Positions 1 to 17,367 of a DNA stretch of 64,000 bases are shown here, piece by piece. Location of the stretch: NCBI RefSeq assembly GCF_014205225.1, contig NZ_JACHNB010000001.1, positions 7,173,501 to 7,237,500 of the forward strand, written 5' to 3'. The position numbers and the translations under genes are program-made. The DNA is from Actinoplanes octamycinicus (GTDB lineage Bacteria > Actinomycetota > Actinomycetes > Mycobacteriales > Micromonosporaceae). How positions within the stretch are numbered: the stretch's first letter is position 1; the number at the start of each line of letters is the position of its first letter. Below the pieces are notes generated by a model. The model did not search any database and was not told where the DNA came from. It worked only from the letters and a program-made list of their open reading frames with translations.

Positions 1-604
1 GCACGTCGCGGGCGGTGGTGTCGCCGATCAGCCGCCACACGTCGAGCAACCCGGCGAGCGTCTTGTGCACGCAGTAGTACGGCACGTTGCCGTTGGACAG
101 GGTGCGCGCCTCCAGCGCGGTGAAGTCGGCCTCCGGGAACCCGGAGAGGTAGCCGTTCGACGCCTGGCACTTGGCCAGCTCGGCGACCATGTAGACGGCC
201 TTGTCCCGGCAGGTGGTGTCGCCGAGTGCGGCCCAGGCCTGCGCCCACGCGGTGAGGAAGTGTCCCTGCATGTGGGTCCGGAACGGGAAGGTGGGCGCGT
301 CCCAGCCGCCGTTGGCGGCGGCCCCGCCGGTGGATCGGCCGTGGTTGGCCCGGAAGTTGTAGAGCAGCCGGTCGACGTCGACGAAGCGCAGGTAGTTGAG
401 GGTACGGGCCTGGTTGTCCAGCCAGCGCCCGGCGGTCAGCCGGACCTGGCCGAACGGGAACGGATAGGCCGCGACGCCCAGGTCGGGCCGGACCGGTGCG
501 ACCGCCGCCTGGGCGGCCCGCGCCGGGGCACCGAGGGTGGCCGCCACCGCACCGGCGCCGGCCGCCTGCAGCAGGTGCCGCCGGCTGAACGGGAACGTGG
601 TCAT
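1..604 (-). CDS. GH127 (DUF1680-like) glycoside hydrolase, 3' part outside window
   Basis: Reading leftwards from an ATG at 604, the frame stays open to the window edge, so only about 201 N-terminal residues are present. They begin with a twin-arginine type leader (SRRHLLQAAGAGAVAATL, then an Ala-rich cleavage region). The next part resembles the start of the GH127/DUF1680 alpha-barrel: RLTAGRWLDNQARTL, a LRFVDVDRLLYNFR stretch, a GGWDAP motif and HMQGHFLTAWAQ. GH127 members are typically beta-L-arabinofuranosidases with a Cys nucleophile near the C terminus, which lies outside this window. The start codon overlaps the stop of the upstream GH43 gene (TGATG), so the two are probably translationally coupled. 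Likely role: secreted removal of arabinofuranosyl units. The exact linkage specificity is inferred from the family. Confidence 0.8.
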   Translation of the reverse strand, partial: MTTFPFSRRHLLQAAGAGAVAATLGAPARAAQAAVAPVRPDLGVAAYPFPFGQVRLTAGRWLDNQARTLNYLRFVDVDRLLYNFRANHGRSTGGAAANGGWDAPTFPFRTHMQGHFLTAWAQAWAALGDTTCRDKAVYMVAELAKCQASNGYLSGFPEADFTALEARTLSNGNVPYYCVHKTLAGLLDVWRLIGDTTARDV

Positions 605-2640
605 CAGCCCTCCCGGGTCAGGTCGAAGCGGCTGACGGTGACCGCGCCGCCCAGCGACTGGGTGGCGTAGTTGAAGATGCCGAAGCGGTAGCCCATGAAG
701 AACTGCCAGGCGTTGTTCAGCGTGAACGCCGGGCCGAGCGGGGTGAACGTGCTGCCGTTGGTGCTGTAGGAGAAGGTGGCGGTGCGCCCCGAGCCGGGCC
801 GAATGTCGGCGGTGGCCCGCAGCCAGATCCGGCCGCCGCTGACCGTGGCGCCGGCCGCCTCGGTCCCGGTGCCGGTGGTGGCCCAGCTGGAGTTCATGGT
901 CAGGCCGTTGGTCATCGACACCCGGGTGACGCCGTTGTCCTTGCGGATGCCGATCCAGGCCGACGAGTCGCGCAGCATCGCCAGGCCGGCCCGGTCACCG
1001 TTGGCCATCTGCGAGTAGTCCAGCTCGATGGTCGCGGTGGAGGCGGGTCCCTGGATCCGGTGGGTGAGCGTGTTCCGGGCGTTGTAGAGGTCGTTCGTCA
1101 CCGTGGCGGTGGACAGCCGCAGCCCGTTGCCGACGCTGAACCGGCTGGTGTCCGGGTTGTGGTTCCACTCCCAGCGGGGCCCCAGAGCGCTTCCGGTGAA
1201 GGTGTCCGGGCCGATCATCGAGGCCACCGTCTTGGACGTGGTGATGTTCGGTTTCGGGTACGTCGCGCCCCACCGCCCGTTCACCGTGGTGAGCACCGGC
1301 CAGTCGTTGCTCCAGGTGATCGGGGCCAGCGTGGGCACCCGGCCGCCGGGGTAGGCGTCGGTGAACGCCATGTACCACCAGTCGCCGTTCTGCGTCTGCA
1401 CCAGGCCGCCCTGGTGCGGCACCCCGCCCCCGGAGATCGGGCCGGGCAGATCGAGCAGGACCTGACGGCTCTCGTACGGCCCCCACGGGCTGGTCGAGCG
1501 CAGCACGTACTGCCCGTTGGCCGGGCGGGTCAGCCAGATGTAGTAGTAGTTGCCGCGCTTGTACATCCGGCTGCCCTCGAGGGTGCCGATGCTCGACGGG
1601 GTGGTGTAGACGGTCTGCGCCCGGACCTGCGAGGTCAGGTCGGCGGAGAGCTGGGCGACGCTGATCGTGCCGTTGCCGTAGGCGACGTACGGCGTGTCGT
1701 TGTCGAAGAGCAGGCCGGCGTCGTAGTAGCAGTTGTTGATCCGGGCCTTCTTCGACCAGGCGCCGTCCACCGCCGACGCGGTGTAGACGTAGGTGCGGTT
1801 GAACTCGGTGCAGCCCAGCCAGTAGTAGGTGCTGTTGCTGGGCCGGTAGTTGAACGCCGACGCCCAGATCCCCTTGACGTAGGCACGGCCGCCGGACAGG
1901 TCGTAGGCGGACGAGTCGAAGTCCAGGCGGGGCACCGAGTGGCCGGCGTACTCCCAGTTCACCAGGTCGTAGGAGCGCAGGATCGGCGCGCCCGGCGAGT
2001 AGTGCATGGTCGACGCCGAGTAGTAGTAGGCGTCACCGACCCGGATGATGTCGCCGTCGGCGAAGTCCTGCCAGACCACCGGGTTGGTGAAGGTGCCGGT
2101 GGACGGGGTGGTGCCGCCGGTCTTCACCAGCTGCCACTGCTGGTTGGCGCCGTTCCAGTCGCTGTACTGCACGATGTTCGCGCCGTCCGCGGTCGACGCG
2201 CCCTGCACCTCGACCGCCTTGCCGCTGTTCCGGTTGATCAGCTGCACGTACCCGTCGACGTCCTGGACGCTGAACTGCTGGTTGGCGGCGTTGTTGTCGG
2301 TCCACTGGATGATCGCGCCGCCGTCCGCGGTGGAGGCGCCGGAGACGTCCAGGACCTTGCCGGAGAGTTTCGATCTGAGCCGGTAGTAGCCGCCGCCGGA
2401 GTCGACGAACTGCCACTGCTGCTGCGCCTGGTCGTTGCGGGTCCACTGGGTGATCCGCGCGCCGTCGTTGGTCGCCAGGTTGTAGAGGTCCAGGGCCTTG
2501 CCGCTGTTGCGGTTGACCAGCACGTAGGAGGCGCTGGTGTCGATCGTGGCGGCCGCGGCCGGGGCGGCCACCGCGCAGGCGAGCGTCGCGCCGAGCACGG
2601 CACTCAGGGCGGCGGCGACCAGTCGCCGGGGATGTGTCAT
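604..2640 (-). CDS. Secreted GH43 glycosidase with N-terminal ricin-type (RICIN/CBM13-like) lectin domain
   Basis: The protein has 678 residues. The start at 2640 is chosen because a signal peptide (MTHPRRLVAAALSAVL, cleaved near AAPAAAA) follows directly and GAGGAG lies just upstream; an open extension to 2889 would cross the promoter. Residues about 35-150 are a beta-trefoil lectin with three QQW/QQF-type repeats. From about 165 comes the five-bladed GH43 catalytic domain (NPVVWQDFADGDIIRVGDAYYY), then a C-terminal beta-sandwich of about 190 residues typical of larger GH43 enzymes. The family acts on beta-xylosides or alpha-L-arabinofuranosides; which one cannot be told from sequence alone. 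The gene has its own promoter with two LacI-type operators and is coupled to the GH127 gene downstream. Confidence 0.88.
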   Translation of the reverse strand: MTHPRRLVAAALSAVLGATLACAVAAPAAAATIDTSASYVLVNRNSGKALDLYNLATNDGARITQWTRNDQAQQQWQFVDSGGGYYRLRSKLSGKVLDVSGASTADGGAIIQWTDNNAANQQFSVQDVDGYVQLINRNSGKAVEVQGASTADGANIVQYSDWNGANQQWQLVKTGGTTPSTGTFTNPVVWQDFADGDIIRVGDAYYYSASTMHYSPGAPILRSYDLVNWEYAGHSVPRLDFDSSAYDLSGGRAYVKGIWASAFNYRPSNSTYYWLGCTEFNRTYVYTASAVDGAWSKKARINNCYYDAGLLFDNDTPYVAYGNGTISVAQLSADLTSQVRAQTVYTTPSSIGTLEGSRMYKRGNYYYIWLTRPANGQYVLRSTSPWGPYESRQVLLDLPGPISGGGVPHQGGLVQTQNGDWWYMAFTDAYPGGRVPTLAPITWSNDWPVLTTVNGRWGATYPKPNITTSKTVASMIGPDTFTGSALGPRWEWNHNPDTSRFSVGNGLRLSTATVTNDLYNARNTLTHRIQGPASTATIELDYSQMANGDRAGLAMLRDSSAWIGIRKDNGVTRVSMTNGLTMNSSWATTGTGTEAAGATVSGGRIWLRATADIRPGSGRTATFSYSTNGSTFTPLGPAFTLNNAWQFFMGYRFGIFNYATQSLGGAVTVSRFDLTREG

Positions 2641-2688: not shown

Positions 2689-2702
2689 TGGGAGCGCTTC
2701 CA
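2689..2702. promoter_or_regulatory. CebR/CelR-like LacI-family operator
   Basis: The sequence TGGGAGCGCTTCCA differs by one base from the palindrome TGGGAGCGCTCCCA. That palindrome is bound by the cellobiose-responsive repressors CebR (Streptomyces) and CelR (Thermobifida). It lies immediately downstream of the predicted transcription start of the GH43 gene. No cebR-like gene is present in the window. Confidence 0.7.
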
Positions 2703-2704
2703 TT

Positions 2705-2718
2705 CGTGAGCGATAGTG
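2705..2718. promoter_or_regulatory. Second, weaker LacI-type operator overlapping the -10
   Basis: CGTGAGCGATAGTG shares the TGAGCGATA core with the site at 8545-8558 (TGTGAGCGATAACA when read on the minus strand). It covers the -10 hexamer of the GH43 promoter. The match is partial, so this is a suggestion only. Confidence 0.4.
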
Positions 2719-2741
2719 CCAGACCATAAAGGCAAATTCAA
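2713..2741 (-). promoter_or_regulatory. Promoter of the RICIN-GH43 gene
   Basis: On the minus strand there is a TTGAAT -35 element (2741-2736), a 17-bp spacer and a CACTAT -10 element (2718-2713). The predicted start of transcription is near 2706, about 65 bp upstream of the ATG at 2640. Two LacI-type operator sequences lie on and just after the -10, so a bound repressor would block RNA polymerase directly. Confidence 0.6.
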
Positions 2742-2810: not shown

Positions 2811-4373
2811 TCAATCGGCGAGCGCGGGCCGTACCAGAAATGATCCGTCGGCGCGGAAACCGGGGCTGCCGTCGAACTGGTCGACCCACAATTCATCGCC
2901 GCGGTGCCGCAGGAACCAGCCGGGGTAGTTGGAGGATTCGAGCAGGACCGAGCCGGCCGGCTGCCCGGCCTGCGGGCAGAACGTCGCGTCGCCGCGGAAC
3001 AGCGCCGAGCCGTCACTCGGGTTAAGCCGCAGCCGCCAGGACGCGTGCCGCAGGTAACGGCCGTCGGCGGACCGGAACGAGAAGCACGTCCGGTCGTTGA
3101 GCCCGGCCACCACCTGGAAGGTCGCCTGCCGGCGGGCGGCGACCGGGTCGTCCGGGCCGACCGCGGTCAGCAGGCCGTAGCCGCCGGGCGCGGTGACGTA
3201 GCGCCCGGCGGCGTTCGCCGAGCTCAGCGACACCGGTCCGAACCGGAGCAGACCCGCTGCGGCGCTGGTGGGCGGCGTGCTGGCAGCGGGCGCGCTGGTG
3301 GCCGGCACGCTGCTGGCCGGCGCGCTGCTGGCCGGCGCGCCGGCCCCGGCGGCCGAGGTGGGCGCCGGGATGGTGGTCGGGTGCGGGGTCTGCGCCACCG
3401 TGGCCGGCGGCGCCGTCGCCGGGTCGGCCACCACGACCGCCCCGCCGACGGCGCCGACCACCAGGGTGCCGGCCGCGACCGCGGTGACCACCGGATGCGC
3501 CGCGGACAGCGCCGCCAGCTGGCCGGCCACCCCGAGTTTCGCGGCGGTGACCGCGCCCCCGGTCGTCTTGGCCAGCACCGACGCGGTCAGCGCGGCCGGC
3601 ACCGGGACCAGGACCAGGGCGGGCAGCAGCCGGTCGATCGGCACCTGCTCGCCGGCGCCGCGGGTGCAGATCGGGCAGTCCCGGACGTGCCGGGCCAGCC
3701 GCTTGCGCCACCGCGGCGCGGGCATCCCGTCCCAGCCGGACAACTCGCCGGCGAGCAGGCCGCACCGCGGGCGGACGTCGAGCGCCGCCACGATGGCCCG
3801 GCTCAGCTCCAGCTGGGCGCGCATCCGCTGGATCCGGACGCCGGCGTGGATCACGGTGATGCCGAGCGCCCGGGCCAGCTCGGCCCGGGACAGCCGGCCG
3901 GCCACCTCCAGCCACCACAGCGACAGCAGCCGCCGGTCGTCCGGGTCCAGCCAGCGGCCGGCCCGCTGCACCTGGCGGCGCTGGGCGGACAGGTCGGCGC
4001 GCAGGTCGGTGACGCCCTCGAAGGCGGCCTCGGCGTCCGGCATCCCGGCGGCCTCGTCGAGCGGCACGAGCTGGGCCGCGGCCCGGTCCGCCCGGTGCTG
4101 GTGGGTGCCGACCTGGCGCAGCGCGATCGCCGCCAGCCAGGGCCGGAAGCTCTCCGGCGAGCGCAGCGACCGCAGCTGGCGCAGGGCGCGGAGCATGATG
4201 TCCTGAGTGACGTCGTCGACGTCCGGGTGCCCGTCGAGCGCCTGCCGGACGATGGCGTAGACCATCGGCAGGTGCGTCGCGGCCAGCTCGTCCAGCGCGG
4301 CGCGGTCGCCGGCCTGCGCCGCCCGCACCAGGGCGGAGGCACCGGCCCGGGTCACTCCCATGTCCGTCGTCAT
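2811..4373 (-). CDS. ECF sigma factor fused to zinc-finger, membrane segment and AbfB (CBM42) arabinose-binding domain
   Basis: The protein has 520 residues. Residues about 15-95 match sigma region 2 (DVDDVTQDIMLRALRQL, FRPWLAAIALRQ) and about 135-200 match region 4 (helix-turn-helix, LSRAELARALGITVIHAGVR). A Cys plus HxxxCxxC cluster (HVRDCPIC, about 235) resembles the zinc-binding fold of anti-sigma factors. A hydrophobic stretch at about 293-315 (PVVTAVAAGTLVVGAVGGAVVVA in part) could cross the membrane, with a weaker one near 250-270. A Pro/Ser/Ala/Thr linker (about 316-376) leads to a C-terminal AbfB beta-trefoil with repeated YLRH/FLRH and D-x-x-DGS motifs. Sigma factors with regulatory C-terminal extensions are known. 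The inferred role is a one-protein sensor that binds arabinan or arabinoxylan outside and controls transcription inside. The start at 4373 is one option; ATG 4361 is another. It lies 47 bp after the GH43-CBM6 gene. Confidence 0.85.
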   Translation of the reverse strand: MTTDMGVTRAGASALVRAAQAGDRAALDELAATHLPMVYAIVRQALDGHPDVDDVTQDIMLRALRQLRSLRSPESFRPWLAAIALRQVGTHQHRADRAAAQLVPLDEAAGMPDAEAAFEGVTDLRADLSAQRRQVQRAGRWLDPDDRRLLSLWWLEVAGRLSRAELARALGITVIHAGVRIQRMRAQLELSRAIVAALDVRPRCGLLAGELSGWDGMPAPRWRKRLARHVRDCPICTRGAGEQVPIDRLLPALVLVPVPAALTASVLAKTTGGAVTAAKLGVAGQLAALSAAHPVVTAVAAGTLVVGAVGGAVVVADPATAPPATVAQTPHPTTIPAPTSAAGAGAPASSAPASSVPATSAPAASTPPTSAAAGLLRFGPVSLSSANAAGRYVTAPGGYGLLTAVGPDDPVAARRQATFQVVAGLNDRTCFSFRSADGRYLRHASWRLRLNPSDGSALFRGDATFCPQAGQPAGSVLLESSNYPGWFLRHRGDELWVDQFDGSPGFRADGSFLVRPALAD

Positions 4374-4407: not shown

Positions 4408-4429
4408 CTGGGATCCTGCCCTATCCCAG
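4408..4429 (-). terminator. Short intercistronic hairpin between GH43-CBM6 and the sigma gene
   Basis: CTGGGAT (4408-4414) and ATCCCAG (4423-4429) form a perfect 7-bp stem with an 8-base loop. The stem includes the stop codon of the GH43-CBM6 gene. It could lower read-through into the sigma gene or protect a 3' end. There is no U-tract, and the effect is inferred. Confidence 0.35.
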
Positions 4430-5797
4430 CGACCCGGCGGCGAATCGCCACCAGTTGACGTTGAACAGATAGCCGCTGCCGCCGGTGAACCGCAGGTAGA
4501 GATCCCGGGTGCCGGAGACGCCGCTGACCGGGCAGCTGACCGTGGTCCAGGTCTGCCAGCCTCCGGTGCCCGGCACCGTGCAGGTCCCGGCGAGGGTGCC
4601 GGTGGGGCTGCCCAGCCGCACCTCGATGCGGCCGCCCGCGGCCGCCGAGGCCACCCGGGCCGAGAACGACGTGGCGCCGGAGCCGAAGGCGACGCCCTTG
4701 ACCTTCACGTAGTCGCCGTTCTCCAGGTAGCCGATGTTCCGGCCGCCCTCACTGGCCGCCTCGGTCTCGACGCCGGAACTCCAGGCGATGGTCTCCGCCT
4801 CCTGCCGGACGTAGGGGTCGAGCGTGCCGTTCTGCGGCGCCCCGCCGGTGGTCATATTGATCGTCGGAATGGTGCCGTCGGCGTTGTAGGTGAATCGCTC
4901 CACGGCCACCGAGCGGGTGTATCCGCCGCCGCCGGGCAGCGCCCCGTTGTGGTAGAAGAAATACGAGCTGCCGTTGAAGTCGATGACGCCCGGATGGTTG
5001 GTGAAGCTGCTCCCCTGGGTGGGCATCACGGTGCCGCGATAGGTCCACGGGCCGGTCGGGCCGGGCGCGGTGGAATAACCGATGAACTCCGAGCAGCACT
5101 TGGCCGCGAAGACGTTGTAGTAGACGCCGTTGCGTTTGTAGACCCAGGGTCCTTCCTCGTAGAGGGTGGGACGGCTGGCGTTGCCGGTACGGGTGCCGAA
5201 ACCGGCGGTGGTGAGCGGGATCGAGGTGACGCCGCCGCTGTAACTGATCATGTCCGGGTTCAGCCGGACGTACCAGAGGTTGGGGTTTCCCCAGTAGAGG
5301 TAGGCCTGGCCGTCGTCGTCGACCAGGACGGTCGGGTCGATCTCGCCGTTCTCCACCAGCGGGCGGCCGAGGGCGTCGGTGAACGGGCCGGTCGGGCTGG
5401 ACGCCACGCCGACGCCGATCGCCATCCGTCCGGTCGCCCGGTTGGTGACCGGGACGTACCAGTAGAACTTGCCGTTGCGGGCGACCACCTGGCCGGCCCA
5501 GGCATCCGATTTGGCCCAGCTGAAGGTGGCGAGGCTCATCGGCGAGCCGTGGTCGGTCCAGTTGACCATGTCGGCCGACGAGTACAGCCGCCACTCCTTC
5601 ATCGTGAAGTAGGTCGAGTTGTCCTCGTCGTGGCCGGTGTAGAGGTAGACGCGGCCGTTGTACACCAGCGGCGCCGGGTCGGCGGTGTAGACCGTCTGCA
5701 CGATCGGGTTGTCGGCGTGCGCGGCGGTCGGCACCGCCGCGGCCAGCACCGCCATGGCAGCTGTGCACAGCAGGCTGAGCAGGGGTCTGGTACGCAT
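4421..5797 (-). CDS. Secreted GH43 arabinoxylan arabinofuranohydrolase (XynD-like) with CBM6
   Basis: The protein has 458 residues with a signal peptide (MRTRPLLSLLCTAAMAVLAA, cleaved after TAAHA). The catalytic part starts NPIVQTVYTADPAPLVYNGR and continues YLYTGHDEDNSTYFTMKEW. This run is characteristic of arabinoxylan arabinofuranohydrolases such as Bacillus subtilis XynD. The base Asp lies in TADPAP and the general acid Glu probably in YEEGPW. Residues about 325-455 are a CBM6 (VRQEAETIAWSSG, YLENGDYVKVKGV, NVNWWRF). It should release arabinofuranosyl side chains from arabinoxylan. The start at 5797 overlaps the stop of the GH27 gene (TGATG) with GGAG upstream. An alternative ATG at 5812 would add MEPSL. 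It is the last enzyme before the sigma-AbfB gene. Confidence 0.9.
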   Translation of the reverse strand: MRTRPLLSLLCTAAMAVLAAAVPTAAHADNPIVQTVYTADPAPLVYNGRVYLYTGHDEDNSTYFTMKEWRLYSSADMVNWTDHGSPMSLATFSWAKSDAWAGQVVARNGKFYWYVPVTNRATGRMAIGVGVASSPTGPFTDALGRPLVENGEIDPTVLVDDDGQAYLYWGNPNLWYVRLNPDMISYSGGVTSIPLTTAGFGTRTGNASRPTLYEEGPWVYKRNGVYYNVFAAKCCSEFIGYSTAPGPTGPWTYRGTVMPTQGSSFTNHPGVIDFNGSSYFFYHNGALPGGGGYTRSVAVERFTYNADGTIPTINMTTGGAPQNGTLDPYVRQEAETIAWSSGVETEAASEGGRNIGYLENGDYVKVKGVAFGSGATSFSARVASAAAGGRIEVRLGSPTGTLAGTCTVPGTGGWQTWTTVSCPVSGVSGTRDLYLRFTGGSGYLFNVNWWRFAAGSLG

Positions 5798-7425
5798 CAG
5801 ACTCGGCTCCATCGCTGGTTGGCGGCGGCGGTGCAGGTCCAGAGCAAGACCAGCGTGCCGTTGGCGGTCAGGTTGTGGTCGACGTCCAGGCAGAGCCCGG
5901 ACGCGACGCCGCGCACGGTCCCGTCGCTGTTGACCGTCCACTGCTGGTTACTGCCCCCGTTGCAGTCCCAGAGCTGGACCTTGGCGCCGGCGGTCGCGCC
6001 GGTCGGCGCGTCCAGGCACTTGCCGAGAGCCTGCAGCGTCGATCCGGTGCTGGTCCAGCGCTGGTTGGCGCCGCCGTTGCAGTCCCAGATGACCGGCTGG
6101 GTGCCGTTGGCGGTGGCGCCGTTCGGGACGTCGAGGCAGCGGCCCGAGGCGGCGCTGACCAGCGTGGTGCTGGCCGGCGGGGTGGTGGTGCCGCCGCCGC
6201 TGACCCGGTAGACCACTGTCCCGTGCGCCGGGACGCTGGCGCTGATCGTGCCGGTGCTGGTCGTGGTGCCGCCGCTCCAGGCGTCCTGCAGGGTGAACGA
6301 GCTGCCGGACTTGCCGATCGCGGCCGCGGTGGTCGACATGGTGACGGTGGATCCGCCCTGGTTGAACAGGGCGACCGCGACGTCGCCGTTGGCCAGGCGC
6401 TTGGCCAGGACGCGACGGCTGCCGTCGTACGAGACCTGGGTCGCCTGCAGGCCCAGGGTGTCCTGGTTGATCGCGATCAGGCGCGGGTTCTTCAGGATGG
6501 TCTGGGTGGCCGCGCTCATCGAGCGCAGGTCGTTGCCGGCGATCAGCGGCGAGGCGAGCATCGACCAGAGCGCGAAGTGGCTGCGCTGCTCGGTGTCGGT
6601 CAGCGTGCCGCGGCCGACCTCCATCATGTCCGGGTCGTTGAACTGGCCCGGCTTGGCGTACCCGGCGAGCGGCACGGTGACGTCGACGATGTTCTTGACA
6701 CCCATCGGGTAGCCGTTGGTCTGCCCGGTGTCCCAGGCCAGGGTGATGTCCTCGGTGGTGCGCCACATGTTGGCCACGTCGCCCCAGTTGCGCTGCGGCC
6801 CGGTCTTGGCGTGGATGCTGTTCGGGTTGATGCTGTAGACGATCGGGCGGCCGGTGGCGGCCAGCGCGTCGCGCATCTTGGCGAAGGTGGCGACCTGGTC
6901 GTTGATCGTGCCGGTGGGTGAGCACCAGTCGTACTTGAGATAGTCGACGCCCCAGGCGGCGAACTGCCGGGCGTCCTGCGCCTCGTGGCCGCCGCTGCCG
7001 GTCGCGCCGGGGTAGCTGTTGAAGTACTGGGCGCAGGTCTTGTCCAGCGGGACCTGGTAGATGCCGAACTTCAGGCCCTTGCCGTGCAGGTAGTCACCGA
7101 GCGCCTTCATCCCGCTGGGGAACCGGGTCGGGTCGCCCTGCAGGTTGCCGGACGCGTCGCGGTTCGGGTTGAACCAGCAGTCGTCGACGACCACGTACTG
7201 GTACCCGGCGTCGCGCATGCCGCTGCTGACCATCGCGTCGGCCATCTGCCGGATCAGCGTCTCGTTGATGTTGCAGCCGAAGGTGTTCCAGCTGTTCCAG
7301 CCCATCGGCGGGGTGCGCGCCACGCCGTTGTCCAGGGCTTGGGCCGGGGAGCCGGGCAGCGCCGCCGCCGTGCCGGCGAGCAGCAGCAGGCCGGCGGCGA
7401 GCATCGAGCGGAGTTTGTTCATCAT
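5797..7425 (-). CDS. Secreted GH27 glycosidase (alpha-galactosidase / beta-L-arabinopyranosidase) with CBM13
   Basis: The protein has 542 residues including a signal peptide (cleaved after SPAQA). The GH27 barrel shows PPMGWNSWNTFGC, VVVDDCWF, YLKYDWC (nucleophile Asp, about residue 165) and FNDPDMMEVG (acid/base Asp, about 265). A beta-sandwich follows, then a C-terminal ricin-type CBM13 (about 420-542) with three RCLD/KCLD/LCLD-QRW repeats. GH27 with this layout is either an alpha-galactosidase or, as in a Streptomyces avermitilis enzyme, a beta-L-arabinopyranosidase; the arabinan context makes the second worth testing. The start overlaps the end of the CE3 gene (ATGA), with GACGAGG as ribosome site. 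It is coupled to GH43-CBM6 downstream. Confidence 0.9.
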   Translation of the reverse strand: MMNKLRSMLAAGLLLLAGTAAALPGSPAQALDNGVARTPPMGWNSWNTFGCNINETLIRQMADAMVSSGMRDAGYQYVVVDDCWFNPNRDASGNLQGDPTRFPSGMKALGDYLHGKGLKFGIYQVPLDKTCAQYFNSYPGATGSGGHEAQDARQFAAWGVDYLKYDWCSPTGTINDQVATFAKMRDALAATGRPIVYSINPNSIHAKTGPQRNWGDVANMWRTTEDITLAWDTGQTNGYPMGVKNIVDVTVPLAGYAKPGQFNDPDMMEVGRGTLTDTEQRSHFALWSMLASPLIAGNDLRSMSAATQTILKNPRLIAINQDTLGLQATQVSYDGSRRVLAKRLANGDVAVALFNQGGSTVTMSTTAAAIGKSGSSFTLQDAWSGGTTTSTGTISASVPAHGTVVYRVSGGGTTTPPASTTLVSAASGRCLDVPNGATANGTQPVIWDCNGGANQRWTSTGSTLQALGKCLDAPTGATAGAKVQLWDCNGGSNQQWTVNSDGTVRGVASGLCLDVDHNLTANGTLVLLWTCTAAANQRWSRV

Positions 7426-8516
7426 CGCCTCGTCCAGAGCTGGTTGGGGGAATTGGTGCAGGTCCAGAGGATGACGGCGGTGCCGTTGGCGGTGGCGTTA
7501 CCGCTGACGTCGAGGCACAGACCGGATTGCGCGTTGCGGATCGTGGAGCCGGAGACGAACGTCCAGCGCTGGTTCGCGGCGCCGCTGCAGTCCCACAGCT
7601 GCGCCTTGGCGCCGGCCGTCGCGCCGGTCGGCGAGTCCAGGCACTTGCCCACCGAGCGCAGCGTCTGGCCGTCGTAGGCCCACTGCTGGTTGGCGGCCCC
7701 GCTGCAGTCCCAGATGATCGGCTGGGTGCCGTTGGCGGTGCTGCCGTTCGGCACGTCCAGGCAGCGCCCGGAGGCGGTGCCGACCAGCGCGGTGCCGGTG
7801 CCGGTTCCGGTGCCCGGGTCGCCGATCGTTCCCGGGACGGTGCGCAGCGCCGCGTACCAGATGGCGGCCATCTTGTCGTAACCACCGGCGGTCGGGTGGA
7901 TGCCGTCGATCAGGTCGCCGGTGGTGAGCGCGGCGTGCATGTCGACGAGGTGCACCCGCGAGCCCTTGCTCCGCACGATGCCGGGCAGGGCGGCGTTGAA
8001 GGTCCGGGCGGCGGCCTCCTGCCCGCTGTTGGCCAGCGGGATCAGGGTGGCCACGAAGACGTCCGCCGACGGCGCGCCGGCCACGATGTGGTCGAGCAGG
8101 GTGGACAGCCGGCCCGGCGCTCCGGACACATTGTAGTTCTGCAGGATGTCGTTGGTGCCGATGTGCAGCAGCACGGTGCGCGGGGTGCTGGCCCGCAGCC
8201 AGCCGCCGATGTTCGCGTCGATCTGATCGATCCGCCACCCGGGGTGACCCTCGTGGTCGTGGTCGCCGAGCTGGGCCGGCCCGTTGAACTGGGAGCCGAC
8301 CAGGTCCACCCGGTAGCCGGCGGCGGCCATCCGCTGCCACAGGCCGATCCGGTATCCGCCGGGCACCTGCGTGCCCTCGGTGATGGAGTCGCCGAGCGGC
8401 ATCACCCGGGTGCCGCCGTTGGACTCGGCGGCAGCCGGACCGGGCAGGCCGGTGACTCCGATGACGGTCAGTGCGGCGGTCAGGACGGCGGCGAGCATCC
8501 AGCGTCTTCTTGGCAT
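7422..8516 (-). CDS. Secreted SGNH esterase (CE3-like acetylxylan esterase) with CBM13
   Basis: The protein has 364 residues. A signal peptide (MPRRRWMLAAVLTAALTVIG, cleaved after PAAA) precedes an SGNH/GDSL hydrolase. Block I is GDSITEG (Ser near 44), the Gly/Asn blocks are around LLHIGTND (about 117), and block V is DGIHPTAGGY (Asp-His, about 202). This arrangement fits carbohydrate esterase family 3, which deacetylates xylan. Residues about 240-364 form a CBM13 lectin very similar to the one on the adjacent GH27. It is the first gene of the leftward operon, with TGGAGACG as ribosome site and LacI-type operators just upstream. Substrate is inferred from family and context. Confidence 0.88.
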   Translation of the reverse strand: MPRRRWMLAAVLTAALTVIGVTGLPGPAAAESNGGTRVMPLGDSITEGTQVPGGYRIGLWQRMAAAGYRVDLVGSQFNGPAQLGDHDHEGHPGWRIDQIDANIGGWLRASTPRTVLLHIGTNDILQNYNVSGAPGRLSTLLDHIVAGAPSADVFVATLIPLANSGQEAAARTFNAALPGIVRSKGSRVHLVDMHAALTTGDLIDGIHPTAGGYDKMAAIWYAALRTVPGTIGDPGTGTGTGTALVGTASGRCLDVPNGSTANGTQPIIWDCSGAANQQWAYDGQTLRSVGKCLDSPTGATAGAKAQLWDCSGAANQRWTFVSGSTIRNAQSGLCLDVSGNATANGTAVILWTCTNSPNQLWTRR

Positions 8517-8622: not shown

Positions 8623-8715
8623 GCCTGTATCCGCACATTGCCAGCTTGTTTCGGGACATTCAAGAGGTCTTCTGCCGCGAATCCTCGGACGGAATCGCGA
8701 CTCGGCGGCGACTGA

Positions 8716-10236
<1,521 letters not shown>

Positions 10237-10239
10237 CCG

Positions 10240-11499
10240 ATGACCTCCCGACGCCATCTCACGCAGCTGACCACAGTCCTGTCCGCGCTGGCCCTGGCCG
10301 CCGCGATGCTGACCGGTGTGCTCGGCGGGACCGCGTCCGCGGCCCCGGTGAGCGCCGCGGCGGCGACCGCCGGGTGCGGCAAGGCGCCGACACTCACCAG
10401 TGGCACTCGCACCATCAGCAGCGGTGGGCAGAACCGCAGCTACATCCTGCGGGTGCCGGACGGGTACGACCGGAACCGGCCGTACAAGCTGATCTTCGCC
10501 TTCCATTGGCTGAACGGCACCGCGGGCAACGTGGCGAGCGGCGGCTACTACGGATTGCAGGGCCTCTCGGCGAACAGCGCGATCCTGGTCGCCCCGCAGG
10601 GCATCGACAACGGCTGGGCGAACACCGGCGGCCGCGACCTGACCCTGGTCGACAACCTGACCGCGCTGATCGAGGGCGACCTCTGCGTGGACACCTCCCA
10701 GCTGTTCGCCACCGGCTGGAGCTACGGCGGCGCGATGAGCTACGCCGTGGCGTGCGCCCGGCCGGCCGTCTTCCGGGCGGTCGCGGTGCTCTCCGGAGCG
10801 AACCTCAGCGGCTGCTCCGGCGGCACCCAGCCGGTCGCCTACCTGGGCATCCACGGCACCCACGACAGCGTGCTGGACATCTCGCTGGGCCGGTCGCTGC
10901 GGGACACCTTCGTGCGTGCCAACGGCTGCGCGGCGCAGAACCCGCCGGAGCCGGCCCGGGGCAGCCTGACCCACGTCGCGACCAGCTACACCGGATGCCG
11001 CGCGGGCTATCCGGTGCGGTGGGTGGCCTTCGACGGGGACCACACGCCGGAGCCGGTGGACGGGTCGACGACCACCAGCGGCGCGCGCACCTGGGTCGGT
11101 GGTGAGATCTGGAGCTTCTTCTCCCAGCTGCCCAGCACCACCACGACGTCGCCGACACCGTCGTCGCCGGCACCCTCCTCACCGACCCCGTCGACGCCCG
11201 CCGGCGGGTGCGCGGCGGCCTTCCGGGTCACCAACAGCTGGCCGGGTGGCTTCCAGGCGGAGGTCACCGTGACGAACGGCGGGCCGGCGGCCATCACCGG
11301 CTGGCGGGTGAGCTGGGCGCTGCCCGCCGGGCAGTCGATCGGGCAGGTCTGGAACGGCACGCTGACCACCGGCGGCGGCACCGCGACGGTGACCAACGCG
11401 GCCTACAACGGCTCGCTGGCGCCCGGCGCCGGAACCAGCTTCGGCCTGATCGCCAACGGCGGCCCGGCCACGGCTCCGTCGCTGACCTGCACCACCTGA
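10240..11499 (+). CDS. Secreted CE1 / feruloyl-esterase-like hydrolase with CBM2
   Basis: The protein has 419 residues. A signal peptide is followed by an alpha/beta-hydrolase of the LpqC/polyhydroxybutyrate-depolymerase type. It shows GWSYGGAMSY (nucleophile Ser), GIHGTHDSVLDIS (Asp) and FDGDHTPEP (His). In xylan loci this family acts as feruloyl or acetylxylan esterase (CE1). A Thr/Ser/Pro linker and a C-terminal CBM2 (CAAAFRVTNSWPGGF, AAYNGSLAPG) follow. The start lies 3 bp after the xylanase stop, so the two genes form one operon. Removing ferulate or acetate decorations would help the xylanase. Ester specificity is inferred. Confidence 0.85.
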   Translation: MTSRRHLTQLTTVLSALALAAAMLTGVLGGTASAAPVSAAAATAGCGKAPTLTSGTRTISSGGQNRSYILRVPDGYDRNRPYKLIFAFHWLNGTAGNVASGGYYGLQGLSANSAILVAPQGIDNGWANTGGRDLTLVDNLTALIEGDLCVDTSQLFATGWSYGGAMSYAVACARPAVFRAVAVLSGANLSGCSGGTQPVAYLGIHGTHDSVLDISLGRSLRDTFVRANGCAAQNPPEPARGSLTHVATSYTGCRAGYPVRWVAFDGDHTPEPVDGSTTTSGARTWVGGEIWSFFSQLPSTTTTSPTPSSPAPSSPTPSTPAGGCAAAFRVTNSWPGGFQAEVTVTNGGPAAITGWRVSWALPAGQSIGQVWNGTLTTGGGTATVTNAAYNGSLAPGAGTSFGLIANGGPATAPSLTCTT

Positions 11500-11647: not shown

Positions 11648-13321
11648 ATGACGGACCTGGATGGCTCCATGACGATCGCCGAGCCCGCCACCGCCGGGGA
11701 TCCCGGCACCGGCCACCGCATGATCCGGAACCCGGTGCTTCCCGGCTTCCACCCGGATCCGTCGATCCTGCGGGTCGGCGCGGACTACTACATCGCGACC
11801 TCGACCTTCGAGTGGTTCCCGGGTGTCCGGGTGCACCACTCCACCGACCTGGTCGACTGGCGGCCGCTCGGTGGCCTGCTGACCGAGCGGCGCCTGCTCG
11901 ACCTGACCGGCACCGCCGACTCGTGCGGCGTCTGGGCGCCCAACCTGACCTACGCGCACGGGCTGTTCCACCTGCTCTACACCGACGTGGCGACGTTCGC
12001 CGGCGGCTACTGGGACCCACAGAACTATCTGATCACCGCGCCGGACATCACCGGTCCCTGGTCCGACCCGGTGGTGCTGCACGGCCGCGGGTTCGACGCG
12101 TCGCTGTTCCACGACGAGGACGGCAGCACCTGGATGCTGTCGATGCGCGCCGACTGGCGCCCCGGCCGCAACCGCTTCGCCGGCATCTCCGTCCAGCGGT
12201 ACGACCGGCACGCGCAGCGCCTGGCCGGCCCGGAGCACCTGATCTTCGAGGGCACCGAGGCCGGGCTCACCGAGGCGCCCAACATCTACCGCAAGGACGG
12301 GTGGTACTACCTGGTCACCGCGGAGGGCGGCACCACCTGGACGCACCAGGTCACCGTGGCCCGCTCCCGGGAGCTGCTCGGCCCGTACCAGGTGGATCCG
12401 GCCGGGCCGCTGCTCACCTCGGCCGGGCGACCGGAGCTGGCGCTGCAGAAGGCCGGGCACGGCAGCCTGGTGCGGACCCCGGAGGGCGAGTGGTACCTGG
12501 CGCACCTGGCCGCCCGGCCGTACGCGCCGACCGGCCGGTGCGTGCTCGGCCGGGAGAGCGCCCTGCAGCGAGTGGACTGGCCGGCCGGCGGCTGGCCGCG
12601 GATCCCCGGCGGGGTGCCGGCCGAGGAGGTCCCGGCCCCGGCCGGCGCCGCCGCGACGCCGGTCGCGGCCGAGCAGCCCGGCGACGACCACTTCGACGCC
12701 CCGGCACTCGGGCCGGACTGGTCGACGTTGCGCCGGCCGGCCGGTCCGGACTGGATCGACCTGTCCGTCCGCCCGTCACACCTGCGGATCCACGGCGGCC
12801 AGTCGCCGATGGCCCGGCACCGGCCCAGCCTGGTCGCCCGCCGGGTCACCGCGCGGCGCTGCACCTTCGAGGCGACCTGCGAGTTCGAGCCGCGCAGCTA
12901 CCGGCAGCTGGCCGGGGTGACCGCCTACTACAACACCCGCAACTGGTACTACCTGCACGTGACCGCCGACGACGACGGTGCCGCGGTGCTCGACGTGCTG
13001 TGCTGCGACAGCGGGCGGGTCACCGAGGTGCCCGGTGTGCGGATCGCACTCGGCGACGTGCGCCGGGTGGGCCTGCGGGTCCGGCTGGACGGCCCGGCGC
13101 TGACCTTCGCCTACACCCTCGACCCGGACCAGCCGGCCTGGCAGGAGATCGGCCAGACCTTCGACGCCACCACGCTGTCCGACGAGTACGCCGCCACGGT
13201 GGTCGCCGGCGAGCCCGAGGCCTGGGGCTTCACCGGCGCCTTCGTCGGGCTCTGGGTGCAGGATCTGGGCGCCGAGGGCGGTTACGCCGACTTCGACCGG
13301 GCGGTCTACCGCACCCCCTGA
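11648..13321 (+). CDS. Cytoplasmic GH43 beta-xylosidase / arabinofuranosidase
   Basis: The protein has 557 residues and no signal peptide. The catalytic domain begins MIRNPVLPGFHPDPSILRVG, then YYIATSTFEWFPGVRVHHS, the hallmark of two-domain GH43 beta-xylosidases (GH43_11-like). The base Asp is in HPDPS and the acid Glu in EGTEAGLTEAPN. From about 340 comes the C-terminal concanavalin-like sandwich that completes the active site. It should hydrolyse imported xylo- or arabino-oligosaccharides. The start at 11648 fits the leaderless promoter; 11669 and 11720 (MIRNPV) are alternatives. It converges with the GH51 gene, leaving 7 bp between stops. Confidence 0.88.
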   Translation: MTDLDGSMTIAEPATAGDPGTGHRMIRNPVLPGFHPDPSILRVGADYYIATSTFEWFPGVRVHHSTDLVDWRPLGGLLTERRLLDLTGTADSCGVWAPNLTYAHGLFHLLYTDVATFAGGYWDPQNYLITAPDITGPWSDPVVLHGRGFDASLFHDEDGSTWMLSMRADWRPGRNRFAGISVQRYDRHAQRLAGPEHLIFEGTEAGLTEAPNIYRKDGWYYLVTAEGGTTWTHQVTVARSRELLGPYQVDPAGPLLTSAGRPELALQKAGHGSLVRTPEGEWYLAHLAARPYAPTGRCVLGRESALQRVDWPAGGWPRIPGGVPAEEVPAPAGAAATPVAAEQPGDDHFDAPALGPDWSTLRRPAGPDWIDLSVRPSHLRIHGGQSPMARHRPSLVARRVTARRCTFEATCEFEPRSYRQLAGVTAYYNTRNWYYLHVTADDDGAAVLDVLCCDSGRVTEVPGVRIALGDVRRVGLRVRLDGPALTFAYTLDPDQPAWQEIGQTFDATTLSDEYAATVVAGEPEAWGFTGAFVGLWVQDLGAEGGYADFDRAVYRTP

Positions 13322-13328
13322 CCCGGGC

Positions 13329-14849
13329 TCAGAGCGCGCCGGTCACCGTCACGAACGAGTGGGCCGGCAGGTGCACCCGCAGCCTGCCGGCGTCCACCGT
13401 CACGCCGTCGTGCGCCCGCGGCGCCACCACCGACGGCGCCTGCGGGGTGTTGTGGTCCGGCAGCGCGCCGGACGTCAGGATCCGGGCGTCGACGGCGGTC
13501 ACCGCGCCGCCGCGCAGCTCGATCTCGACGTCGGCGGCCGCCTCGGCGCCCAGGTTCGACAGCGACACCAGCAGCCGGCCGTCCTTGCGGCTGGCCGACA
13601 TCGAGACGGTGGTCAGCGTCGCGTCGCCGACCGGGCGGACCGGCAGCGGGGTGCGCAGGTCGACGCGCAGCGCCGTGGCGTCCTGGTGACCCCGGTTCAT
13701 CGCGAAGACGTGGTAGGTCGGGGTGAGCACCATGGCGTTCGAGTCCGGATCGGTCAGGATCATCGCCTGCAGCACGTTCACCGTCTGCGCGATGTTGGCC
13801 ATCACCAGGCGGTCGGCGTGCCGGTGGAAGACGTCGAAGTGCACGCTCGCCACCAGCGCGTCGCGCAGCGTGTTCTGCTGGTACAGGAAGCCTGGATGGG
13901 TGCCCGGCTCCACGTCGAACCAGGTGCCCCACTCGTCGAGGACCAGCCCGACGCTCTTGCTCGGGTCGTAGCAGTCCATCACCGCGGCATGGCCGGCCAC
14001 CAACTCCTCGACGCGGGCCGCGGCCAGCATGGTCGCGTAGTGCTCGTCGGCGCCGAAGTCGGTGGCCGAGCCCTTCGCGTCCCAGCTCGGGCCGGTGATC
14101 GTGTAGTAGTGCAGGGACAGGGCGTGGTACGGGGTGCTGCCGATGTGCTGGCAGCCCAGGTGCCCGATCTGCTTCATCAGCGTCTCGGTCCACGCGTAGT
14201 CGGCGCCGTTCGCCCCGGCCGCGATCTTGTAGAGCCGGTTGTCGCCGTGGTCGCGGCAGTAGGTGCCGTACCGCCGGGCCTCCTGCGCGTAGTGCTCGGC
14301 GGTCATGTTCCCGCCGCAGCCCCACGCCTCGTTGCCGAGTCCCCAGAACCGCACTCGCCACGGCTCGGCGCGGCCGTTCGCCGCGCGCAGCCGGGCCATC
14401 GGTGAGTCACCGGCCCGGGTCAGATACTCCACCCAGTCGCTCATCTCCCGGACCGTCCCCGAGCCGACGTTCCCGCTGATGTACGGCTCGGCGCCGAGCA
14501 GCTCGCACAGCGCCAGGAACTCGTGGGTGCCGAAGTGGTTGTTCTCCTCGACGTCGCCCCAGTGGGTGTTCACCATGACCGGCCGCTCGTCCTTCGGCCC
14601 GATGCCGTCCCGCCAGTGGTATTCGTCGGCGAAGCAGCCGCCCGGCCAGCGCAGGTTCGGGATGCTCAGCGCCCGCAGCGCGTCGACCACGTCGAGACGG
14701 ATGCCGCCCTCGTGCGGGATGCCGGAGTCCTCGCCGACGTAGAAGCCGCCGTAGATGCAGCGGCCCAGGTGCTCGGCGAAGTGGCCGTAGAGGTGCCGAT
14801 TGATCCGTGGTCCGTCGAGGTCCACGTTGAGGACGGCTTCGATGGTCAT
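13329..14849 (-). CDS. abfA: GH51 alpha-L-arabinofuranosidase, intracellular
   Basis: The protein has 506 residues with no signal peptide, the usual length for GH51. It shows [20 protein letters not shown] at the N terminus and [15 protein letters not shown]. The acid/base Glu is in [10 protein letters not shown] and the nucleophile Glu in [10 protein letters not shown]. It releases terminal arabinofuranose from arabino-oligosaccharides in the cytoplasm. The start at 14849 has GGAAAGG upstream. The longer open frame to 14996 would run through the operator and is rejected. A CCGAAA-G-TTTCGG operator and a TATTTT -10-like hexamer (14898-14893) lie upstream. It diverges from the ABC importer operon and probably shares its repressor. 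Confidence 0.93.
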
Positions 14850-15086: not shown

Positions 15087-16376
15087 ATGGCACCGAAGAG
15101 GACCATCGCCGTGGCTGCCGTACTGGCGCTGAGCGCCCTGGGCATCGCCGCCTGCGGCGGCGGGGACGACGACGACTCCAGCTCGGGCGGCACCGTCACG
15201 ATGGAGCTGTGGCAGAACTCCACGACCGGCCCAGGCAAGGCCTTCTGGGAGAAGACCGTCGCCGACTACCAGAACGCCCACCCGAACGTGAAGATCAAGC
15301 TGTCCTCGATCCAGAACGAGGACCTGGACGGCAAGCTGCAGACCGCGCTGAACTCCGGCTCGGCGCCGGACATCTTCCTGCAGCGCGGCGGCGGCAAGAT
15401 GGCCGCGATGGTCGAGGCCGACCAGCTCAAGGACATCACCGACAGCATCTCCGCCGAGTCCAAGCAGGCGGTCGGTGAGGCCGCGCTGAAGACCGGCCAG
15501 GTCGACGGCAAGGCGTACGCCGTCCCGGTCTCGATCCTCCCCGGCGGCTTCTGGTACAGCCAGGACCTGTTCAAGAAGGCCGGGGTCAGCACCCCGCCGG
15601 CCACCCTGGACGACCTGAACGCCGCGGTGACCAAGCTCAAGGCGGCCGGCACCCCGATCGCGCTGGGCGCCAAGGACGCCTGGCCGGCCGCGCACTGGTT
15701 CTACTTCTTCGCGCTGCGCGCCTGCAGCCAGGCCACCCTGGACGCGACCGCCAAGAGCAAGACCTTCGACGACCCCTGCTGGACCAAGGCCGGGGAGCAG
15801 CTCAAGGCGTTCGCCGACACCAAGCCGTTCAACGAGGGCTTCCTGACCACCTCGGCGCAGCAGGGCGCGGGCAGCTCGGCCGGCCTGCTGGCCAACCACA
15901 AGGCGAGCATGGAGCTGATGGGCTCCTGGGACCCGGGCGTGATCGCCTCGCTGACCAAGGACACCAAGCCGCTGCCCGACCTGGGCTTCTTCCCGTTCCC
16001 CGCGGTCCCCGGCGGACAGGGTGACCCGGCCGCGGTGATGGGCGGGGCGGACGGCTACTCGTGCGCGAAGGACGCGCCGAAGGAGTGCACCGACTTCCTC
16101 AACTACATCCTGACCAAGGACGTGCAGGTCGGCTTCTACAAGGGCTTCAACTCGCTGCCGGTGAACAAGGAGGCCCAGGCGGCGGTGACCGAGCCGTACC
16201 TCAAGGCGGTCCTCGACGCCTACAACAAGGCGCCGTACGTCTCCCAGTGGCTGGACACGCTCTACGGGCAGAACGTCGGCAACGCGCTGAACGTCGGCGT
16301 GGTGAACCTGCTGGCCGGCAAGGGCGACGTCGCCGGGATCATTCAGGCGGTCAACGACGCGGCCAAGAAGGGCTGA
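15087..16376 (+). CDS. Sugar ABC transporter substrate-binding lipoprotein
   Basis: The protein has 429 residues. The lipobox LGIAAC places the lipidated Cys at about residue 23, followed by a GGGDDDDSSSGG tether. The body is a cluster-B (MalE/extracellular binding protein family 1) fold: TVTMELWQNSTTGPGKAFWE, SGSAPDIFLQRGGGKMAAM and a Trp/Tyr-rich C-terminal lobe. Its place beside GH51/GH43 and its operator suggest xylo- or arabino-oligosaccharides as ligand, as for BxlE-type proteins; this is inference. It is the first gene of a three-gene operon, with GAGAGG 10 bp before ATG. Confidence 0.92.
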   Translation: MAPKRTIAVAAVLALSALGIAACGGGDDDDSSSGGTVTMELWQNSTTGPGKAFWEKTVADYQNAHPNVKIKLSSIQNEDLDGKLQTALNSGSAPDIFLQRGGGKMAAMVEADQLKDITDSISAESKQAVGEAALKTGQVDGKAYAVPVSILPGGFWYSQDLFKKAGVSTPPATLDDLNAAVTKLKAAGTPIALGAKDAWPAAHWFYFFALRACSQATLDATAKSKTFDDPCWTKAGEQLKAFADTKPFNEGFLTTSAQQGAGSSAGLLANHKASMELMGSWDPGVIASLTKDTKPLPDLGFFPFPAVPGGQGDPAAVMGGADGYSCAKDAPKECTDFLNYILTKDVQVGFYKGFNSLPVNKEAQAAVTEPYLKAVLDAYNKAPYVSQWLDTLYGQNVGNALNVGVVNLLAGKGDVAGIIQAVNDAAKKG

Positions 16377-16378
16377 GA

Positions 16379-17365: not shown

Positions 17366-17367
17366 GC

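Follow-up and report, generated by a model that had tools for sequence, protein, structure and literature searches.

The window analysed here is a stretch of 64,000 nucleotides from Actinoplanes octamycinicus (contig NZ_JACHNB010000001.1, positions 7,173,501 to 7,237,500), and the gene of interest lies near its start, at positions 2811-4373 on the reverse strand. The product, 520 amino acids (aa) long, joins an extracytoplasmic function (ECF) sigma factor, a zinc cluster, a likely membrane helix, a linker and a carbohydrate-binding module of family 42 (CBM42, or AbfB) in a single chain. On balance, our preferred reading is a polysaccharide sensor: a one-component sigma factor of the ECF52/ECF53 type, held at the membrane. 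Its parts are listed below, with model confidence given as pLDDT (predicted local distance difference test) and hydropathy as KD (Kyte-Doolittle).

2811..4373, reverse: 520-aa fusion (ATG start) of an ECF sigma factor with zinc cluster, likely membrane helix, linker and CBM42
4092..4283, reverse: sigma-70 region 2, residues 31-94 (Pfam PF04542, Sigma70_r2, E 5e-11)
3819..3950, reverse: sigma region 4 helix-turn-helix, residues 142-185 (covered by TIGR02937; PF13404 weak and below cutoff; ECF structure alignment)
3666..3689, reverse: anti-sigma-like zinc cluster HVRDCPIC, residues 229-236 (HxxxCxxC motif)
3573..3629, reverse: hydrophobic stretch with VPVP, residues 249-267 (in a 276-residue model, one helix at 246-252 and another at 260-271, not continuous)
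3426..3482, reverse: likely single membrane helix, residues 298-316 (KD 2.19 over 19 residues, uncharged)
3246..3425, reverse: Pro/Ser/Thr/Ala linker, residues 317-376 (translation; pLDDT <50 at residues 272-373)
2832..3230, reverse: CBM42/AbfB beta-trefoil, residues 382-514 (PF05270 E 1e-41; model pLDDT ~95)
2988..3047, reverse: span of the CBM42 beta pocket, H443 to D462 (counterparts of AtAbf43C H70 and D89 by motif)

An earlier note on this DNA, made from its letters, had proposed most of these parts, and the domain evidence upholds them. PF04542, TIGR02937 and the alignment to ECF structures agree on sigma regions 2 and 4. The NCBIfam sigma70-ECF model TIGR02937 spans residues 26-189 (E 8e-17), and region 4 extends over approximately residues 119-189, where the Pfam call falls below the cutoff but ECF factors of known structure, 1or7 among them, can be aligned. 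The anti-sigma-like HxxxCxxC motif was found in all 58 family members examined, and H229, C233 and C236 do not vary in either of two alignments, one of 25 members and one of 50, though the Pfam model zf-HC2 gave no call on the 520-aa protein. The Pro/Ser/Ala linker that the note described is indeed rich in these residues and in Thr, and its AbfB domain is confirmed by Pfam and by the structure comparison that it had proposed: the modelled CBM42 has target-normalised template modelling (TM) scores of 0.87-0.89 against the CBM42 chains 3kmv, 9fnk and 9nxi (Foldseek), of which 9fnk bears the name anti-sigma-I factor RsgI5 among the PDB sequence matches. In the full-length AlphaFold model, the helices of the sigma and zinc segments are confident and the linker is unstructured (predicted TM score, pTM, 0.41); a second AlphaFold2 (AF2) model, of residues 1-276 with a 50-member input, has helices much as in the full-length one (pTM 0.57).

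CBM42 domains of arabinofuranosidases such as AkAbfB (1wd3) and AtAbf43C share the fold and the beta-pocket His and Asp, though there the module is attached to an enzyme and here to a sigma factor. In AtAbf43C, arabinose is contacted by H70, Y73 and D89 in the beta pocket and by H118, N120, Y121 and D136 in the gamma pocket (PMC12493170). H443 and D462 are invariant in 25/25 aligned CBM42 members, as are G438, R442, R447, T464 and C466, and two members outside the alignment (L091 and L112; loci and genomes are given our own L and G numbers) keep both His and Asp when examined by eye. The 24 aligned CBM42 members other than the 520-aa protein, at 41-74% identity, also retain the zinc residues. 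The AtAbf43C Tyr position is a Trp in the 520-aa protein and varies among members, the gamma-pocket His is replaced in some of them, and no alpha-pocket His was seen on inspection of the 520-aa sequence. With the beta-pocket His and Asp invariant and the gamma-pocket His variable, one pocket is strongly constrained, and the CBM42 is a putative binder of arabinofuranose through its beta pocket.

The earlier note had pointed to one-component sigma systems, ECF factors with regulatory extensions, as known; sigma factors of the present layout are already published (PMC5826349, PMC8999054, PMC10766802). ECF52 is an actinobacterial group in which a single chain runs from a sigma domain and a zinc finger through a membrane segment and a Pro-rich extension to a C-terminal carbohydrate-binding domain, and for which proteolytic release and sensing via the carbohydrate module have been proposed (PMC5826349, PMC8999054). 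Some ECF52 and ECF53 members have predicted glycosyl hydrolase or carbohydrate-binding domains, which are described as lacking experimental validation (PMC10766802). The 520-aa protein has the sigma regions, zinc segment, Pro-rich extension and carbohydrate domain, and is placed in ECF52/ECF53 by this layout. ECF53 has the same layout, and the literature passages covered report no regulon for it; the predicted glycosyl hydrolase domains of some ECF52/ECF53 members have a parallel in a Glyco_hydro_cc paralogue described below.

Enzyme genes and outer domains

The sigma gene lies within a cluster of genes for carbohydrate-active enzymes, mostly glycoside hydrolases (GH) and carbohydrate esterases (CE).

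1..604, reverse: GH127 beta-L-arabinofuranosidase, N-terminal part in the window (whole gene in L018), with GH62 next, outside
604..2640, reverse: GH43 carrying a ricin-B lectin domain, next gene after the sigma gene (domain call)
4421..5812, reverse: GH43-CBM6, separated from the sigma gene by 47 bp on its upstream side (PF04616, PF03422)
5797..7425, reverse: GH27 with ricin-B lectin domain, overlapping both neighbours (domain call)
7422..8516, reverse: SGNH esterase (CE3-like) with ricin-B domain, first gene of the probable operon (domain call)
8878..11499, forward: GH10-CBM2 (8878-10236) and esterase-CBM2 (10240-11499), divergent (domain calls)
11648..13321, forward: GH43 (domain call)
13329..14849, reverse: arabinofuranosidase, presumably of GH51 type (domain call; the GH51 label is our assumption)
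15087..18201, forward: ABC sugar transporter, binding protein and permeases (PF01547 and PF00528 for the first two genes; the third by position)

The GH127 and GH62 genes were identified on L018 (PF07944 E 1e-108 and PF03664 E 1e-157), with GH62 and GH10 following GH127 just beyond the edge of the window. This is the arrangement that the earlier note had described, with GH43-CBM6, GH27 and CE3 on one side and GH43 and GH127 on the other, and the surrounding genes fit its choice of arabinan or arabinoxylan as the substrate. Given the overlapping ends of the GH43-CBM6, GH27 and CE3 genes and the 47 bp to the sigma gene, CE3-GH27-GH43-sigma is probably one operon; as the sigma gene is last, its expression would rise with that of CE3, GH27 and GH43.

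Relatives of the protein were gathered by protein similarity rather than by their neighbours. The sources were six named Actinoplanes loci and sets of 20 genomes, 21 genomes from the family and 25 from the class, with the window's own genome counted within each set; from the 20- and 21-genome sets, the matches listed with the sigma part were fetched, down to approximately E 1e-47. The own genome (one contig of 10.28 Mb) encodes four proteins with such a sigma/zinc half, two carrying CBM42, one Glyco_hydro_cc and one a beta-helix. Across the family, Pfam names AbfB, Glyco_hydro_cc (which we take to be GH128-type), Pel9A-like beta-helix, Lcl_C, CAP, DUF4185 and LRR_5 as outer domains, the scan covering part of the members and the rest being typed by alignment or by the appearance of the C-terminus. 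CBM42 sigma factors are absent among the matches listed for G006 and G008 and for the sampled genomes beyond the window's family. A 785-aa member from G008, added last, is without CBM42 and has none of the scored enzyme sets nearby.

Gene calls came from a codon-usage script, and BLAST matches to catalytic domains served to score the neighbours. The arabinan/xylan set comprised GH43 (three), GH27, CE3, GH10, esterase, GH51, GH62 and GH54, and the pectin set PL1 and CE8 (pectate lyase and pectinesterase); the window together with L022 and L084 supplied the reference enzymes of the former, and L095-L097 those of the latter. Genes had been called at 26 CBM42 loci, and 21 of these have a member of the arabinan/xylan set within 600 bp. 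Hand addition of L048 (a GH62 fragment at a contig end) and L112 (GH10) brings this to 23 of 27 members, so that the match of sensor and neighbours is also seen beyond the own genome, where the earlier note had suggested looking. A stricter count, with GH43, GH54 and GH62 only, gives 15/26. No arabinan/xylan neighbours were found at this distance for the GH128-type (0/15) or beta-helix (0/9) loci. PL1 and CE8 stand within 2.5 kb of eight of nine beta-helix loci, the miss being L068, or of eight of ten if the own-genome beta-helix locus L017, with neither gene, is included; the pectin pair lies within 2.5 kb of none of 26 CBM42 loci. When the reference loci are excluded, the matches stand at 18/23 for CBM42 (arabinan/xylan) and 5/6 for beta-helix (pectin). 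Thus, the outer domain fits the adjacent enzymes for two sensor types, CBM42 and beta-helix.

The Fisher p values for this match (1e-10 and 4e-6) are too strong given relatedness, because the sensor types are nearly clades; the tree requires four changes for the AbfB label, three for GH128 and two for beta-helix. The nearest neighbour varies among CBM42 members (GH62, GH10, GH43, GH54, GH27, CE3 or esterase), which argues against plain inherited synteny.

A GH128-type member occurs in all 12 same-genus genomes sampled and may be a core sensor whose ligand is beta-1,3-glucan or the organism's own cell wall; the GH128-type loci L016, L055, L057-L060, L062, L064-L067 and L072 are without arabinan/xylan or pectin neighbours in the scoring. 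Other sensors (CAP, LRR_5, DUF4185, Lcl_C and lysozyme-like) were seen at L093, L109, L110, L073, L199:7786-10143, L056, L061 and L090; the DUF4185 label at L199:7786-10143 is one of resemblance only, and the domain at L090 (9284-11026) was judged lysozyme-like by eye. No scored enzyme lies within 2.5 kb of the Lcl_C (n = 2), CAP (n = 1) or DUF4185 (n = 1) loci, PL1 being 4.2 kb away at the DUF4185 locus L073, and L108-L110 have no scored enzyme neighbours.

Promoter element and operators

An element of the form TTGA-N8/9-GAAAY-N2-TCTGGCAAYAT lies ahead of arabinan/xylan genes. The GAAAY part was absent from the first genome-wide pattern and emerged from its matches. One search returned 13 sites in 8 of 12 genomes, 12 of them before arabinan/xylan-type genes; another returned 19 sites in 11 of 30 genomes, 17 of them so placed. 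The reversed pattern gave no site in either, and six sites are common to the two. Sites in the window were scored with a position weight matrix (PWM).

8635..8663, reverse: shared element before CE3-GH27-GH43-sigma, TTGAATGTCCCGAAACAAGCTGGCAATGT, PWM 22.6
8800..8817, forward: shared element without TTGA, upstream of GH10, PWM 25.9, the window's best
2713..2741, reverse: weak shared element upstream of GH43 (604-2640), PWM 13.9, within chance maxima
2689..2702, no strand assigned: operator-like palindrome TGGGAGCGCTTCCA, presumably LacI-type

The best score in 697 random 500-bp blocks was 15.5, and the third site (13.9) is hardly higher than the fourth-best in the window, which lies elsewhere (13.6). 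We assume that the operator palindromes, here and in other genomes, are of LacI type, and we take the geometry of the element (TTGA-nn, 17, then CAAYAT after TGG) to be that of a sigma70-type promoter with an extended -10. Elsewhere in the own genome (G000:C1:7592282-7592299, at L159), the element stands 78 bp before a gene for a 474-aa exported-looking protein.

One way of assessing the link between element and sigma factor is to compare GH62 genes in genomes with and without a CBM42 sigma. Of 53 protein matches, 47 were used (three distant ones and three contig-end fragments being omitted), and nine of these were dropped as their readable upstream sequence was too short. At score 12, the element precedes 8/24 GH62 genes where the sigma is present and 2/14 where it is absent; at score 16, the counts are 5/24 and 2/14. 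The idea that the shared element is the target of the CBM42 sigma is therefore unsupported, its presence at GH62 genes not tracking that of the sigma. We conclude that the element marks an arabinoxylan regulon, to which the sigma gene probably belongs. Of the direct polysaccharide-to-promoter switch suggested in the earlier note, the match of CBM42 to the neighbouring enzymes survives, though control of the neighbouring promoters does not find support.

Several other observations, along with the GH62 counts, weigh against the favoured reading. The element has the spacing of a sigma70 promoter, and a LacI-type palindrome stands just downstream at 7/13 sites as judged by eye. It occurs in three genomes with no detected CBM42 sigma, once in G008 (before a LacI-type gene), twice in G020 (GH62 and GH43) and once in G022 (GH62). 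No ECF-type autoregulatory motif was found upstream of the sigma genes in the 24 of 27 CBM42 members searched (two close orthologues and L091 were omitted). Four of the 27 members (L021, L051, L089 and L091) have no arabinan/xylan neighbour. Only one independent contrast in neighbours is supported, among three in all for CBM42 and two for beta-helix. Lastly, a second hydrophobic stretch (residues 249-267) makes the membrane topology a prediction only.

What the motif search did yield was LacI-type operators, with log-likelihoods of 119 against 79-101 for shuffles at width 28, and 74 against 44-49 at width 14. Other GH62 genes carry TTGA-operator-TARCAT, four in genomes without and two in genomes with a CBM42 sigma; the GH62 promoters at L132, L127, L151 and L152, where no CBM42 sigma was detected, read TTGA-(GGGAGCGCTCCCG)-TAACAT, with a LacI-type operator inside the spacer. 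At the pectin loci L054, L063, L069, L070, L071, L096 and L097, the sigma gene, the pectin genes or both are preceded by a palindrome-like ACAACAGAAATC..GATTTCTGTTGT, likely an ordinary regulator site.

The strongest alternative, which we nevertheless hold to be rather unlikely, is that the targets of the membrane CBM42 sigma lie elsewhere (development, envelope or adhesion), that LacI-type repressors and sigma70-type promoters run the neighbouring genes, and that the sigma gene rides in the operon or is a repressor target. The LacI-type palindromes directly downstream of many shared elements favour it, as do those that L049, L050, L051 and L053 have 26-90 bp upstream of the sigma gene, and the occurrence of the element in genomes lacking a detected CBM42 sigma. 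A precedent exists in SCO4117, an ECF52 member of Streptomyces coelicolor that is reported to influence antibiotics and sporulation. Compared by description, SCO4117 has a smart00776 module, a gene beside atrA and developmental effects, whereas here a CBM42 is found in an enzyme cluster. This alternative sits less easily with arabinan/xylan adjacency that recurs with differing nearest genes and is not seen beside any of the 15 GH128-type paralogues.

Membrane topology

Of the single membrane segment in the earlier note, a likely helix at residues 298-316 remains, though two hydrophobic stretches were found rather than one. The ECF52/ECF53 groups are characterised by one or two membrane helices, and here hydropathy and AF2 show stretches at 249-267 and 298-316; the full-length model places the latter helix at 294-310 with low confidence. 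If both stretches were membrane-spanning, CBM42 would face the cytoplasm, either sensing imported arabino-oligosaccharides or serving a structural role. Both are indeed hydrophobic (KD 2.13 and 2.19), the first is uncharged in 18/23 CBM42 members inspected, and the charges flanking the second favour neither orientation. We nonetheless consider an intracellular CBM42 improbable: the first stretch contains Pro-x-Pro in 46/58 members, the stretch is broken in both AF2 models, at low confidence (pLDDT <50 at 254-258 in the full-length one), and the outer domains belong to typically secreted kinds. On the models, residues 249-267 are read as the final helices of the anti-sigma-like domain rather than as a membrane helix, presumably resembling the helix with which zinc anti-sigma domains end.

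A paralogue also argues against an intracellular CBM42. In the own genome, the beta-helix sigma gene L017:9855-12053 (forward strand) has a divergent neighbour, L017:8172-9614 (reverse strand), the two lying at about C1:6272171-6276052 and sharing a 1,194-bp inverted repeat of 99.9% identical DNA that spans the sensor domain. The product of the neighbour has a lipoprotein-like N-terminus with a lipobox-like LLGGC ahead of the repeated beta-helix sensor. The recurrence of the sensor in a lipoprotein-like product favours the prediction that sensors of this sigma family are extracellular. The inverted repeat itself could stem from gene conversion or be an invertible segment, or the neighbour could act as a co-receptor or soluble decoy.

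Proposed mechanism and its meaning

In the membrane-tethered sensor that we propose, CBM42 would lie outside the cell and bind terminal arabinofuranose of arabinan or arabinoxylan via the beta pocket, while the zinc-cluster segment would keep sigma regions 2 and 4 inactive at the membrane. Ligand binding, or altered binding as the enzymes free fragments, may then cause the sigma part to be freed by proteolysis, and the freed part would raise expression of genes for arabinan or arabinoxylan. A local switch at the arabinan/arabinoxylan locus is plausible, with a promoter step that is putative, and the sigma family combines a common signalling module with outer domains that can be exchanged. That CBM42 serves only to anchor the cell to plant polysaccharide, or to bind its own arabinose-containing wall, with no signalling, is very improbable. 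In favour of this, CBM42 is a common binding module and 4/27 members lack enzyme neighbours; against it, adhesion alone requires no sigma factor, and the zinc cluster in 58/58 members along with many invariant sigma residues points to a retained signalling role.

Two known systems invite comparison. Clostridial RsgI anti-sigma factors bear varied sensors, including CBM42, CBM3, PA14 and GH10, according to published work (PMC12203970, PMC4711584). The SigI/RsgI system of Clostridium thermocellum (e.g., RsgI5-CBM42) is likewise a membrane signalling module with varied sensors, and the CBM42 described here aligns to 9fnk. In that system a SigI-type sigma is paired with a second protein, the anti-sigma RsgI, whose periplasmic domain cleaves itself, whereas here there is one chain with an ECF sigma and HxxxCxxC; a separate anti-sigma factor with RsgI N-terminal and autocleaving domains has no counterpart in this protein, for which no such Pfam domain is listed. 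IutY (ECF243, Pseudomonas putida) is also a sigma/anti-sigma fusion and is activated by intramembrane proteolysis, though it responds to the siderophore aerobactin, and the passages available on it do not mention a carbohydrate module.

Among the papers listed by full-text literature searches, none was seen on a CBM42-sigma fusion or on the matching of sensors to neighbours in sigma factors of this kind; the ECF classification paper and an actinobacterial survey, which may mention either, lie outside its coverage. The layout and the sensing idea are already known; as far as searched, what goes beyond the published work is the swapping of outer domains in Micromonosporaceae, two of which match their neighbours.

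A broader reading, which we offer as possible rather than probable, is that Micromonosporaceae combine one membrane sigma/zinc module with many outer domains (CBM42, Pel9A-like beta-helix, GH128-like, CAP, Lcl_C, DUF4185 and lysozyme-like, with LRR in another family) into an array of single-protein polysaccharide-to-promoter switches. The outer domain would tell which polymer activates the adjacent enzyme genes, and the array would be a counterpart, separately evolved, to SigI/RsgI in clostridia. It is the swapping of sensors that deserves testing. If this reading is true, the outer domain of each sigma would predict the plant or fungal polymer sensed and the enzyme genes that respond, and regulons could be read from sequence; ECF52/ECF53 would gain testable pairs of ligand and promoter, and sensor domains would become available for engineered polysaccharide-responsive promoters.

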